NCBI GenBank assembly: GCA_031274765.1
Contig: JAISPR010000097.1
Span: 1-35,470, forward strand
Source: Nitrososphaerota archaeon
GTDB lineage: Archaea > Thermoproteota > Bathyarchaeia > Bathyarchaeales > Bathycorpusculaceae
Length of the DNA: 35,470 nt
Direction: 5' to 3'
Shown here: positions 1,623-31,256 of the stretch, in pieces
How positions within the stretch are numbered: the stretch's first letter is position 1
Layout: every line of letters starts with the position of its first letter
Position numbers and translations under genes: made by a program
Notes under the pieces: model-generated
What the model saw: only the letters and a program-made list of their open reading frames with translations
Databases searched by the model: none
What the model was told of the DNA's origin: nothing

Positions 1623-1696
1623 GCCTCGATAGCTCAGCCCAGTAGAGCGGCTGCCTTGTAAGCAGCAGGCCGCGGGAGCAAGGCCCGCTCGAGGCT
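1623..1696 (+). tRNA. tRNA-Thr(TGT), with an aberrant T-loop
   Basis: Acceptor stem GCCTCGA/TCGAGGC is perfect, with discriminator T at 1696. The D-arm is GCTC...GAGC and the anticodon stem GCTGC/GCAGC encloses loop CTTGTAA, giving anticodon TGT (1657-1659, Thr). The T-stem GCGGG/CCCGC is perfect, but its loop reads AGCAAGG instead of the near-universal TTCRAnn: positions 54 and 55, normally T and psi, are A and G. No intron and no encoded CCA. A tyrosine recombinase gene starts 60 bases downstream, so the 3' end of this tRNA is a natural candidate attachment site. The gene could be a functional but odd tRNA or a pseudo-tRNA. Confidence 0.85.
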
Positions 1697-1755
1697 CCTA
1701 CTCTTTGAGTACAAAGCCCTGTTTCCTTTTAAAATCCCCAAAAACAAACAATAAC

Positions 1756-2962
1756 ATGACAACAACTGAACCAATCCACGACTACGAACAACGCCTAGCA
1801 AGACACCGCCACAACATAAAACAATTACCAAACAGACAAATCACACTACAATTCCTAAACCACCTAGGGCGCCCTAGGACTATCAGTAGCCCGAGTAACC
1901 AAATACGCCACCCACTCACCCCCACTCCTACGCATGATACAAACAGACCTCAAAACAATAACCAAACAAGACCTCGAAACAATCGTCTCCACCATAAATG
2001 CCAGCAAACAAAAAGAATGGACCAAACACGACAAAAAACTCCTCCTACGCAAACTAGTCCAATACGCCAAACAAGGTAGCTGCGCCAAAGGTACACCCCT
2101 ACCTCCAGAAGTAAGCTGGATAAGCCTAACCGTAAAAGAAAAAGACCCACGAGTAACCCCTGAAAGCCTGCTCACTCCCGAAGACTTTACAGCCATCATA
2201 AAAACCAACAACAACAAACGCGACCGCGCAATGGTCTATGTCCTCTTCGAAGCCGCCCTACGACCCGGCGAGCCCTTAACCATGACAATCGGTAGCGTAA
2301 TATTCAAAGAAGAATACTGTCTTATATCCGCAAACGGTAAAACTGGCCCTAAACGCATACCCACAGTCCTATCCTGCAAACCCCTACTAGAATGGCTAGA
2401 AGATCACCCAAACAAAAACAACCTCGAAGCACCCCTCTGGTGTACTTTAGACAACCGTCACATAGGCGAACGCTTAAGCTACCGACGGTTCCGCCTAAAA
2501 ATCAAAAAACTAGCCCAAAAAGCAGACATAAAAAAAGACATATGGCCTTACCTCTACCGTCACACCAGTCTAACCGCCATGGCCAAAGTCTTCACCGAAG
2601 CCCGATTGGAACAATTCGCAGGCTGGACATATGGAAGTAAAATGACCAGCCGATACGTACACTTCTCCGCCCGCGACCTCGAAGATGCCATACTAGAACT
2701 CCACGGACTAAAACAAACCACCAAAAATGCCGGCATAGCAAAACTAGTTGACTGCCCAAGATGTGGCAACAAAAACCCCCCAGGCAAAATAAGATGCAAC
2801 ACCTGCAGCATGACCATAGACAAAAAAACCACCCTAAACTTAGAAACCACCCAAATACAAAAAGAAAAAACCCTTGAAAAGAATAATACGGAATTACAAG
2901 CAAGACTAAACAAGCTCGAAGAAGCTATCTCAACTCTAATAGCCTCTCAGAGCAAAACTTAG
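1756..2962 (+). pseudogene. Tyrosine recombinase/integrase, +1 frameshift near the N-terminus
   Basis: The gene reads in one frame from ATG 1756 (MTTTEPIHDYEQR...QFLNHL) and continues in the next frame from 1868 (GALGLSVARVTKY...), as expected for the N-terminal SAM-like domain of archaeal XerC/D-type recombinases. The break lies at GGG 1867-1869; one G too many explains it. The restored protein is about 401 residues. In the main frame (residue 1 = M at 1934) the catalytic set is visible: R110 (AALRPGEPL), a lysine near 136-140, R209 (YLYRHTSLT), W231 in place of the usual His, and nucleophile Y241 (SRYVHFS). A C-terminal zinc ribbon (C274, C277, C288, C291) and a probable coiled coil (about 305-335) follow. 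It sits just after tRNA-Thr, as integrases of tRNA-targeting elements do. Either inactivated, or a sequencing error at a short G run; the catalytic part is intact. Confidence 0.85.
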
Positions 2963-2987
2963 TTTTGTTTGTTACCTCTAACCTTTG

Positions 2988-4000
2988 TTACTGACGCTCT
3001 TTTTTGTTTGTTTTCCAGCTTTTTTGTGCATCTTTAAGATTTGTAAGATAGCTTTGTTCAACAGATGTTAAAGTGACTACTGTTTTTTGACGGTATTTTG
3101 CGTATTCATCCTCTGCTTGTGTAAGTGTATCCTGATGACTAACTACCCCTGCATCAGACAAAACCCCCTTACCATAACGTTTAGCAAAATCATCCAACTC
3201 CCCAACCCAATCCCTCATATACATAGGCTTATGCTGCATAGCACGAAGCTCCGCAAGATCAAAAAACGCCGACACCATACGATTCAACACAGCCAACTCT
3301 TCCTCAGTCAAATAATTCTTCGCAACCCCCACCTCACTTTTCACAGGTTGCGCACCTGAAAAAACAGTCAACCCCATAAACGGCAACGTCGCATCAGCTC
3401 GTTTAGCAATCACCTCAGCAGCCGTATGACCATGCGCTACAAAATGAATTTTATTTTGAACCAACTTGAAAAATTCTTGCGACACAGGCGTTCGCGGGTC
3501 ATAGTCCACACTTGTCGCATAGAGGTCGAGAACTTGGCGATAAAACACCTTCTCACTAGAACGTATATCCCGAATACGCTCCAAAAGCTCAAACCAATAA
3601 CTCCCCCCACCCGCTTTTTTTAGCAAGTCATCATTCATCGAAAAACCCTTAACGATGTATTCGCGCAGAACCCCTGTTGCCCAACGACGAAATTGAACCC
3701 CCGCAAAGACTTTACACGATACCCGACTGAAATAATAACATCCAAATTGTAATACTTTGTTTGATAATTTTTACCATCAATCGCAATTGTCAAGTATTCC
3801 TTGACAACTGAAACTTTATCAAGCTCACCTTCTGCAAACGCATTATTAATGTGTAAACTAACATTTTGTTTTGTTGTTTGAAACAATTCCGCCATTTGTG
3901 CCTGTGTCAACCAGACCGTTTCATTTTCCAGTCTCACATCAATCTTTGTATGTCCATCATCAGTTTGATAAATGACTATCTCAGAATTATCAAGTGCCAT
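2988..4000 (-). pseudogene. RhuM-family protein, frameshifted
   Basis: The N-terminal part (4000 to about 3700) reads MALDNSEIVIYQTDDG...TVWLTQAQMAELFQTTKQNVSLHI, a helix-turn-helix start typical of the RhuM (virulence-associated) family. The rest continues in another frame as VQFRRWATGVLREYIVKGFS followed by MNDDLLKKAGGG..., also RhuM-like. The two join if the C run at 3698-3702 (G run on the coding strand) had one more base. The restored length is about 337 residues, normal for the family. The C-terminal segment has a start-like ATG at 3638 but is unlikely to be a separate gene. Molecular function is not established; RhuM genes are common on phage-like and plasmid-like DNA. The gene is convergent with the recombinase, 25 bases between stops. 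Confidence 0.8.
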
Positions 4001-13649: not shown

Positions 13650-13697
13650 TGTATATATACATTTTGCCATAATTTAGCAATATTGCTCAAGTTGAGC
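13650..13697. promoter_or_regulatory. Cluster of three palindromes, possible operators
   Basis: Within 48 bases: TGTATATATACA (13650-13661), AGCAATATTGCT (13676-13687), both perfect 12-bp palindromes, and GCTCAAGTTGAGC (13685-13697), perfect but for the centre base. They lie upstream of the response-regulator gene. Dimeric regulators bind such sites, but no regulator is identified. Confidence 0.35.
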
Positions 13698-13731
13698 ATA
13701 AACGAAGAGTCACCATATTAAAATATCCCCC

Positions 13732-13836
13732 AGACTGTTTAAAAACTAGCAAAAATCCCCAAAAAACAAGAAAAGAACACTTTTTCTCCACCCATTTACA
13801 CCAAAAACACAAAAAATTCTAGTTTTTAGACAATCT
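13732..13836 (-). mobile_element. MITE-like element, family beta, copy B1
   Basis: About 105 bp bounded by inverted repeats: AGACTGTTTAAAAACTAG at 13732-13749 and CTAGTTTTTAGACAATCT at 13819-13836 (15-16 of 18 match after inversion). The body matches copies A, B2 and C. Long frames through it have low-complexity, Phe-rich products and are not considered genes. Confidence 0.6.
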
Positions 13837-13956: not shown

Positions 13957-14245
13957 CCTTCGCCTAAACTGAATTGCCTGACCACCCTTTAGTACCAAAA
14001 TAATCCACATCACCATTTAACCTCCGTATCATTTTTTTAGAACCACCAAATAGTTGTGTCTGAAACTGTTAGAGGCGGCCTCCGAAAACCCATATTTTTC
14101 CAAAGATCGTCTGCTGGAAACCGTGTAATTGTGTTGTTTAGTTTTCTGAAATGGGGTTTTTGGATTTTGCCTAGAGTTTAAAGGGTTTCTTTCCAACAAA
14201 CCCCTTATCAAGCAAAATAAAATTACCGGTAGGTTTAATTTTTTA

Positions 14246-27065: not shown

Positions 27066-27975
27066 AAACTTTTAATGTAACACTATTTTCCCTTACACCC
27101 ATAAAAACCTTGTCAACCCAAAAACCAAGCGGATTCGCTTTTTTCAACAATGAAACCAGCGTTATTTCAAATAAGCCCCCAAAGCAACAAAATGTTTAAT
27201 CAGTACTACACACACAAACAATTAAACCGATTTTATCAATCAACCTAACAACTTACATTCGGCAGTTTGACCCAACACAGCCAAAAATTAAATCACACTC
27301 AAAAAATATTCAAAAAAATAAGAAAAACATTGTAAAAATAACCAAAAACACGCAACAACCCGCAATATAAACAATTCAAAATATTTTTTTCCCAAACTGC
27401 CAAATGTAAGTAACAAGGGCATAACATCCAGGTTTATCTCAAACTCAAAGGGTTTTTTCACTCAATCAATAAAACAATCTTGTTTTCCCAAACAGCAAAC
27501 AACATTTTTAGCTCATAGAATGCCCCATACAAACCCGGTTTTCTTCACTTTAATATTGCAAACAAAAGTAAGAAATAACTAAAGGCATCAAAGTTTAGGG
27601 ATGATTGAAAACGCATGTGATATCCATGCTTGCATGGATTTAGATAATATCCCGACAACTAAACAAACAGACCCACATACCCCAAATAACAAAGTTCAAA
27701 AACAACCCACATTAACGCCAAAGCCCAGCCAGCTAAACACAACCCGAATTCAAACTGTTTTTCTAACAACAACTATTTTAAAGTTCTACAAGTTAACCTG
27801 GTGAATGAGTTCCAAAAAAAAGTCCACTGAGTCGCATTGTTATTTTTAGCCATCCAGTCCATTTTCGGTTTAAACAACCCGGTTTTTATAGAAACAACAC
27901 GATTAGATTAAAATAACCCCACTTGTTTATATCAGAGAAATGCACAACTGAATAGGCAAGGAAGCGAAAGAGACT
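27066..27975. other. Non-coding spacer containing MITE-like copy
   Basis: No gene recognised. It holds MITE-like family alpha copy 1 (27251-27411) and A/C-rich DNA. A 67-codon frame from 27601 has low-complexity composition and is not accepted. Confidence 0.5.
27251..27411 (-). mobile_element. MITE-like element, family alpha, copy 1
   Basis: 161 bp, non-coding. Ends are ACTTACATTCGGCAGTTTG (27251-27269) and CAAACTGCCAAATGTAAGT (27393-27411), inverted repeats matching at 18 of 19 positions. AACA flanks both sides (27247-27250 and 27412-27415), as a 4-bp target-site duplication would. A second, inverted copy lies at 28246-28402. Confidence 0.7.
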
Positions 27976-28170
27976 ATGAGTGAAGAAGGCGACCCGTTCT
28001 GGGCTTCATTGTATGAAAGAGTTTTTGGATTAATCCTCATCATAATTGGCGCAGCATTACTCTACATTACAGTTACAACCGAAGTAGGCGGATTTAGCAT
28101 ATTGTTTGGTTTCCTCAGCACTGTTTTGATCATAGTGGGCATTTTCTTGTTGCTCATTAAACCACAATAA
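27976..28170 (+). CDS. Small membrane protein, two transmembrane helices, unknown function
   Basis: 64 residues: a short charged N-terminus (MSEEGDPFWASLYERV) and two hydrophobic helices, GLILIIIGAALLYITVT (about 17-33) and a second near 39-61 (ILFGFLSTVLIIVGIFLLL). The topology is a hairpin with both ends on one side. I do not know its function; it resembles small conserved membrane proteins I associate with Bathyarchaeia (from memory, unverified). It lies between two inverted copies of the family alpha MITE-like element but appears to be an ordinary chromosomal gene. Confidence 0.75.
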   Translation: MSEEGDPFWASLYERVFGLILIIIGAALLYITVTTEVGGFSILFGFLSTVLIIVGIFLLLIKPQ

Positions 28171-28245
28171 CAATCTTCTTTTTTCGTCATGTTTTAACGG
28201 TTCATAGAAGAAGTATTAGTTAAATTAGGCAATATTTTCACTAAA

Positions 28246-28402
28246 ATCCACATTCGACGGTTTGGGAAAAAGTATGTCGGATTATTTACATTACAATTTA
28301 TTGCGAGTTTTTGGTTATTTTTACAATAATTTTCTTATTCTTCGAATATTTTGGAGGTAATTTAATTTTTGGCTGTGTTGGGTCAAACTGTCGAATGTAA
28401 GT
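28246..28402 (+). mobile_element. MITE-like element, family alpha, copy 2
   Basis: 157 bp, aligned along its whole length with the reverse complement of copy 1. Long identical blocks occur near the right half, such as TTTTTGGTTATTTTTACAAT and TTTAATTTTTGGCTGTGTTG. Its left end (ATCCACATTCGACGGTTTG) is more diverged than its right end (CAAACTGTCGAATGTAAGT), suggesting an older insertion. Flanks are A-rich (TAAA/AAAA), so the target duplication is unclear. Confidence 0.65.
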
Positions 28403-28488
28403 AAAAACGTTTTCAACAAAGGAAAAAACAGGCCATAGGAAACGTCTAATAACCAGCTTACATCTGCTTATACAAAAATAGATAGACG

Positions 28489-28498
28489 TATTTATAAA
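28489..28498 (+). promoter_or_regulatory. TATA-like promoter of infB
   Basis: TATTTATAAA about 42 bases before the infB TTG start. A leader of about 20 bases would contain the strong GGAGG site at 28528-28532. Inference from consensus and spacing. Confidence 0.5.
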
Positions 28499-30327: not shown

Positions 30328-31256
30328 CACTACGTAGCGATACAACAAACAATACTTCAAATCGTATCCGCTATCAGGGTCTTGCTCACAAAAACATAAC
30401 CGCAAATGATTTTCGTAACCAACCGTCAAAAACGCCGTTTTGCTCGCATAAGCGCTACGTTCAACCTGTTTGCTGTAGTGCTAACCAGAATATCAGGTTA
30501 TTGATACATACAGGAAAAGTTATGATAAGCAGTTTTATATGAAAAGACGTAACAAATGATATTTGATAACTATACAGTTCGACCCCACTATTATAGCAAC
30601 ATGTGTAAAGTTTTACTATATGTTCTTCGGCTTTAAGTTAGCCTGTATTGTCATTAAACGAATTTGTCCTATTTCTTCATCATAATTGCTCGTGGTATAC
30701 CACAAAACACTGACCGAATACTTCACTATGAATCATGCAAATAGAGCACAGTAAAACTTTTAGTCACTTGCTATAAACTACCTTACGTGGGATAACTTGA
30801 CAAAGACAACCCTTTGATGAGAACGGTGCAAAACAAGAATATGTGCGTTCAGACTGTGAAAAAGGTCAAAAAACAACATCACTAAACACTGCATATGGCG
30901 TACAACCTTTATCTATTGCTGTATGTAGTGGTCTTGGTGAATTTTATCGGAGTTTTTTCGCAGTCTGAGTTTTCAATTTTTCCACTATAATCCATTTTTG
31001 ATGGATATTTTCGAGAAAACGGGTTGAACACAGCAGTATTTTACTATGAATGATTGTTTGTGTGAACGTGATTTGGGGTTTAGTTTGAATACTTTTTGAT
31101 TTAAGCTTTGTGCAGAGTTTGAAAAATATTGATGACTTTGTTTTTAACAGCTCAAACGAGCACATGTATAAAAAACAAAAACTCAAAAATTAAACAGACA
31201 AAATAAACAACAGACAACATCAAATAATTCTATCATAATGTCGTGCAGCCATAAAT
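30328..31256. other. 0.9-kb spacer after infB, no gene seen
   Basis: I see no coding region or RNA gene. It contains a small hairpin ATCCAT-TTTTG-ATGGAT (about 30986-31002). Confidence 0.5.

Follow-up and report, generated by a model that had tools for sequence, protein, structure and literature searches.

A family of short inverted-repeat elements, probably MITEs, with 4-bp target duplications in a termite-gut Bathycorpusculum genome

The miniature inverted-repeat transposable elements (MITEs) of Sulfolobus solfataricus, the SM elements, have known insertion sequence (IS) partners. Insertion sequences with 4-bp target duplications are known from the IS5 subgroup, IS701, ISH3 and IS1380. MITEs are a known kind of element, of which archaeal representatives have been described in Sulfolobus and others (PMC10969869), and the S. 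solfataricus families SM1-SM4 comprise 25 to 44 copies each (PMC10969869). Candidatus Bathycorpusculum is a genus of Bathyarchaeia whose habitats are termite guts, soils and sediments (PMC10684969).

The stretch of DNA analysed here, called the window, is 35,470 nucleotides long and forms contig 28 of a 2.5 Mb termite-gut MAG of 170 contigs, which kinship labels assign to Bathycorpusculum (Bathyarchaeia). The first-pass annotation of the window had described two repeats of about 160 bp, at 27251-27411 (+) and 28246-28402 (-), as inverted copies of a MITE-like family. Both repeats are present, and they align end to end in opposite orientation with 83% identity over 157 bp (E=5e-40). Their features are as follows.

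27251-27411, + strand: MITE copy 1, 161 bp, used as the query; full-length copies elsewhere in the genome are 88-98% identical
27251-27269, + strand: left terminal inverted repeat of copy 1, ACTTACATTCGGCAGTTTG, from copy alignment and end-pattern search
27393-27411, - strand: right terminal inverted repeat of copy 1, ACTTACATTTGGCAGTTTG, from copy alignment and end-pattern search
27247-27250, no strand: left target site duplication of copy 1, AACA, preceded by T, read from the flank
27412-27415, no strand: right target site duplication of copy 1, AACA, followed by A, read from the flank
28246-28402, - strand: MITE copy 2 (157 bp), the older of the pair, opposite in orientation to copy 1 and 83% identical to it
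28384-28402, - strand: terminal repeat at the intact end of copy 2, ACTTACATTCGACAGTTTG, read inwards from 28402, from alignment and end-pattern search
28246-28264, + strand: terminal repeat at the degraded end of copy 2, ATCCACATTCGACGGTTTG, with 4 mismatches relative to the other end
28242-28245, no strand: flank of copy 2, TAAA, an imperfect duplication with AAAA at 28403-28406
28403-28406, no strand: flank of copy 2, AAAA, an imperfect duplication with TAAA at 28242-28245

The 19-bp terminal inverted repeats that had been ascribed to both copies hold for copy 1, where the two ends match in 18 of 19 positions, and for one end of copy 2, whose left end is degraded. The AACA duplication reported for copy 1 was indeed read on both sides, and the duplication of copy 2 is imperfect because its flanks are TAAA and AAAA. 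Copy 2 is older and weaker than first described, having one degraded end and imperfect flanks. Between the copies lies an open reading frame (27976-28170) for a hydrophobic protein of 64 amino acids, in agreement with the small membrane-protein gene that had been placed there; a Pfam search with it gave no match. About 138 bp separate the end of copy 2 from the infB start (28540), and about 88 bp separate it from a TTTATA box at 28491; the copy therefore lies upstream of the infB promoter, not within it. The earlier placement upstream of this promoter was correct, whereas the word "directly" stands for a gap of about 88 bp to the TATA-like box.

We estimate at about 95% the probability that both repeats are copies of a MITE. 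This estimate is based on what can be read from the sequences, namely copy number, common ends, 4-bp duplications, target preference, empty sites, an apparent restriction to one genus and lack of coding capacity. The copies, ends, duplications and empty sites agree with each other and with the MITE-like family originally proposed. The features by which MITEs are recognised were found together: a length of 161 bp (the limit is about 600 bp), no transposase gene, 19-bp ends, a duplication of fixed length (4 bp), dispersal and empty sites.

The further copies expected for such a family are plentiful in the genome. A search of the same genome scored 40 full-length copies with 88-100% identity among 163 candidates, and the terminal pattern, with two mismatches allowed, occurred at 135 sites (63 forward, 72 reverse) compared with none for the reversed control; these numbers show that the repeat match is not due to chance. 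The element of about 160 bp was located at 89 separate places, 66 of them at least 140 bp long, in the stretches of the genome that were retrieved, to which this count applies. The remaining places are fragments truncated at contig ends or interrupted by nested insertions, and there are therefore somewhat fewer elements than places. The 58 copies for which both ends and flanks were available are 75-98% identical (median 93%) to a 161-bp consensus. No significant open reading frame was found in any of the six frames of this consensus, consistent with the earlier description of the element as gene-less.

Some copies are split by other short repeats (L068:2627-2739, L112:2740-2856, L051:2759-2905 and L063:2301-2431), which have inverted ends of their own, e.g. 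CAGACTGCGCAAAA and AAACCTTAGGTGTTATTAGTG, and occur at 6-25 places in the loci retrieved. More high-copy short repeats lie in the window at 30848-30963, 14040-14164 and 13680-13740, the first of which matches the CAGACTGCGCAAAA-type repeat that splits MITE copies. Another copy (L048:1-284, contig C6 of the host genome G000) is broken, at position 106 of the element, by a sequence that starts with GTGCGTCCGTAAGAGG and runs off the contig. The GTGCG start had raised by eye the suspicion of a group II intron at C6:284, a candidate that was dropped after Rfam gave no match. A different place in the window (1623-4000) holds, in this order, a tRNA-Thr, a gene for a tyrosine recombinase (1934-2962, Phage_integrase) and a RhuM-family gene divided between two frames (2988-4000); this region looks like an element integrated at the tRNA gene.

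Insertion left a clear signature. An exact 4-bp direct duplication flanks 33 of the 58 copies with both ends and flanks, compared with 1.8 expected from shuffled pairings, and duplications of 5 bp or longer were found at none of the 58. In the 33 exact duplications the first position is mostly A and the last mostly T, with T before the duplicated sequence in 28 and A after it in 32, giving the target consensus T/ANNT/A (the slashes bound the duplicated 4 bp). The 25 copies that have no exact duplication speak against the MITE interpretation, though age, nested insertions or decay of the ends could be the cause. Because some copies sit inside other repeats, empty sites, which the first-pass annotation had proposed to look for, could be detected within the same genome. 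The uninterrupted copies of the repeat that hosts the element at C58:2207 read GTGTAACTATG, in which AACT occurs once. For the copy at C49:108883 the flanks, when joined, align without a gap to another place on the same contig (116 bp, 93%). At C143:9078 a gapless match of 71 bp (85%) runs across the junction.

With one mismatch allowed, the end pattern occurs in 6 of 32 genomes of the genus, and 225 other genomes of the class gave no match, which suggests that, as far as was searched, the family is confined to the genus Bathycorpusculum. Copies in the sister species genome G026 are 92-93% identical, those in G021 and G012 about 72-83%, and exact 4-bp duplications were seen in six of the seven copies checked in these three genomes. 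The viral contigs searched contained no match to the family.

The ends of the element can pair into a stem, and the consensus folds with -31 to -38 kcal/mol, as a dispersed functional RNA or a regulatory hairpin of the REP/BIME or ERIC type, kept for its structure, would do. This explanation is nevertheless very improbable. Among 1099 cells of the 19-bp terminal stem 105 were broken as against 12 compensatory, so that there is no support for the conserved RNA structure with compensatory changes which the first-pass annotation named as the sign of a functional RNA. Conservation of the interior is close to that of the ends (0.90 versus 0.92), as expected of recent copies, Rfam had no match at the site and recognised only the neighbouring tRNA, and the exact 4-bp duplications and empty sites are likewise at odds with this explanation. 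Even less credible is the interpretation of 27251-28402 as one composite transposon, in which the inverted copies would carry the small membrane-protein gene between them. It is true that the copies enclose a single open reading frame of 64 codons for amino acids, and that the sister genome G027 harbours a 1283-bp unit with related ends, an ATTT duplication and a passenger gene. However, the outer flanks of the pair are unlike (AACA to the left of copy 1, AAAA to the right of copy 2), copy 1 has an AACA duplication of its own, and the copies are just 83% identical, which indicates that they are probably of different ages; nor did a second copy of the whole 1152-bp unit with one common outer duplication come to light in the searches made for the single element. 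Because the outer flanks differ, copies 1 and 2 are regarded as independent insertions.

An origin of the family from an ISAzo13-family transposon, which would also have moved it, was considered because an intact ISAzo13 transposase gene in contig C72 of G021 (PF07592, E=2e-128) has a family end 166 bp upstream of it. In an 84%-identical element in G027, however, the alignment starts only at AGGAAYTGTAAGAAAATAA, where this element has inverted repeats of its own, and so has a copy in G004 (CTAAGGARCTGTG). Relative to the ISAzo13 repeats the family end is on the outside, which indicates that the IS inserted into or beside a copy of the family; as ISAzo13 copies have terminal repeats of their own, not shared with the family, this origin was rejected as highly unlikely. 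None of the 30 loci with a PF01609 transposase in five genomes of the genus was bounded by family ends, a result that concerns ends near the loci and leaves room for more distant ones. Two further candidates were discarded: an IS1 in contig C136 of G027, which has its own ends and sits within a family-like element, and ends in contigs C28 and C1 of G026 and C46 of G030, which by eye lie inside coding sequence for IS5-type transposases and are therefore chance matches.

No autonomous element with the family ends was found in the same genome, in the genus or in a family-wide search of assemblies, in which the end pattern was applied to 32 genomes of the genus and 257 genomes of the class in all, and an end search with three mismatches to 31 genomes of the genus; this result counts against the MITE interpretation. 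The loci at unpaired ends and at many weaker end matches turned out to be MITE copies, nested copies, solo ends and chance sites in host genes. Of the full transposon with the same termini to which the first-pass annotation had hoped to match the ends, what was obtained is a longer element with these ends in G012, the middle of which is unassembled. Contigs C78 (L092:3028-3146) and C80 (L093:1-118) of this genome end 119 and 118 bp inside the element, which is inserted in an IS110-like transposase gene with an ACTT duplication on both sides; the record name, k119, suggests that the assembly graph was broken at a repeat. The inner end sequences of this element are also present in G021, in G027 and at other loci of G012, likewise where the sequence is broken or interrupted, and a search with them returned only further broken contig ends. 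Probably, a longer relative exists, which may or may not encode a transposase.

Under the MITE interpretation, the element is a non-autonomous, gene-less DNA transposon of about 160 bp with terminal inverted repeats of about 19 bp (ACTYACRTTYGRCAGTTTG). As the sequences show, it inserts at T/ANNT/A and duplicates the 4 bp in the middle, implying a cut with a stagger of 4 bp. Most likely the copies are mobilised in trans by an autonomous DNA transposon whose transposase, probably of the DDE type, recognises the same ends. The movement in trans, the DDE chemistry and the loss or non-assembly of the autonomous partner are what we infer from the pattern of insertions.

The 1283-bp unit of G027 (C27:9726-11008, L128:727-2009) has the related terminal repeats ACTTGTTTTTGGCAGTTTGA and ACTTGTCTTCGGCAGTTTGT and an exact ATTT duplication in a T/NNNN/A context. 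It carries a membrane gene with DUF996 and a zinc ribbon, has no transposase, and is possibly a gene-carrying non-autonomous cassette. We consider it a rather unlikely, speculative extension that a transposase type so far unrecognised in Bathyarchaeia drives the family and that the same end recognition also mobilises longer gene-carrying cassettes such as this unit. With as little confidence, each end would then comprise the inverted repeat and, next to it on the inner side, a motif resembling TTGAATTA, and the target T/ANNT/A would be cut with a 4-bp stagger. If this were so, host genes could be moved between sites by units lacking a transposase.

These observations show that very small transposons can be densely packed in Bathycorpusculum genomes: here one family has some 90 copies or more, and several other families are nested in it. 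Such repeats help to explain the fragmentation of Bathycorpusculum assemblies, and insertion polymorphism of the family could be used to mark strains of this uncultured lineage. The concrete question raised is which enzyme recognises the ends.

The family seems to be undescribed: in the open-access papers searched, no account of transposable elements in Bathyarchaeia was found, and the only one that names Bathycorpusculum makes no mention of transposons. With SM1-SM4 it has in common that its archaeal elements are short, lack genes, occur in many copies and end in terminal inverted repeats; compared by description, it differs from them (25-44 copies) in occupying about 89 places, in its 4-bp duplication within T/ANNT/A and in that no partner was found. 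With the IS5 subgroup, IS701, ISH3 and IS1380 it shares the length of the duplication, whereas no element with the family ends was found, the PF01609 loci of the five genus genomes not being bounded by them. Like the enterobacterial ERIC and REP-BIME sequences, its copies are dispersed, short and partly palindromic intergenic repeats, but in contrast to these, the exact short duplications and empty sites of the present family are those of insertion by transposition.
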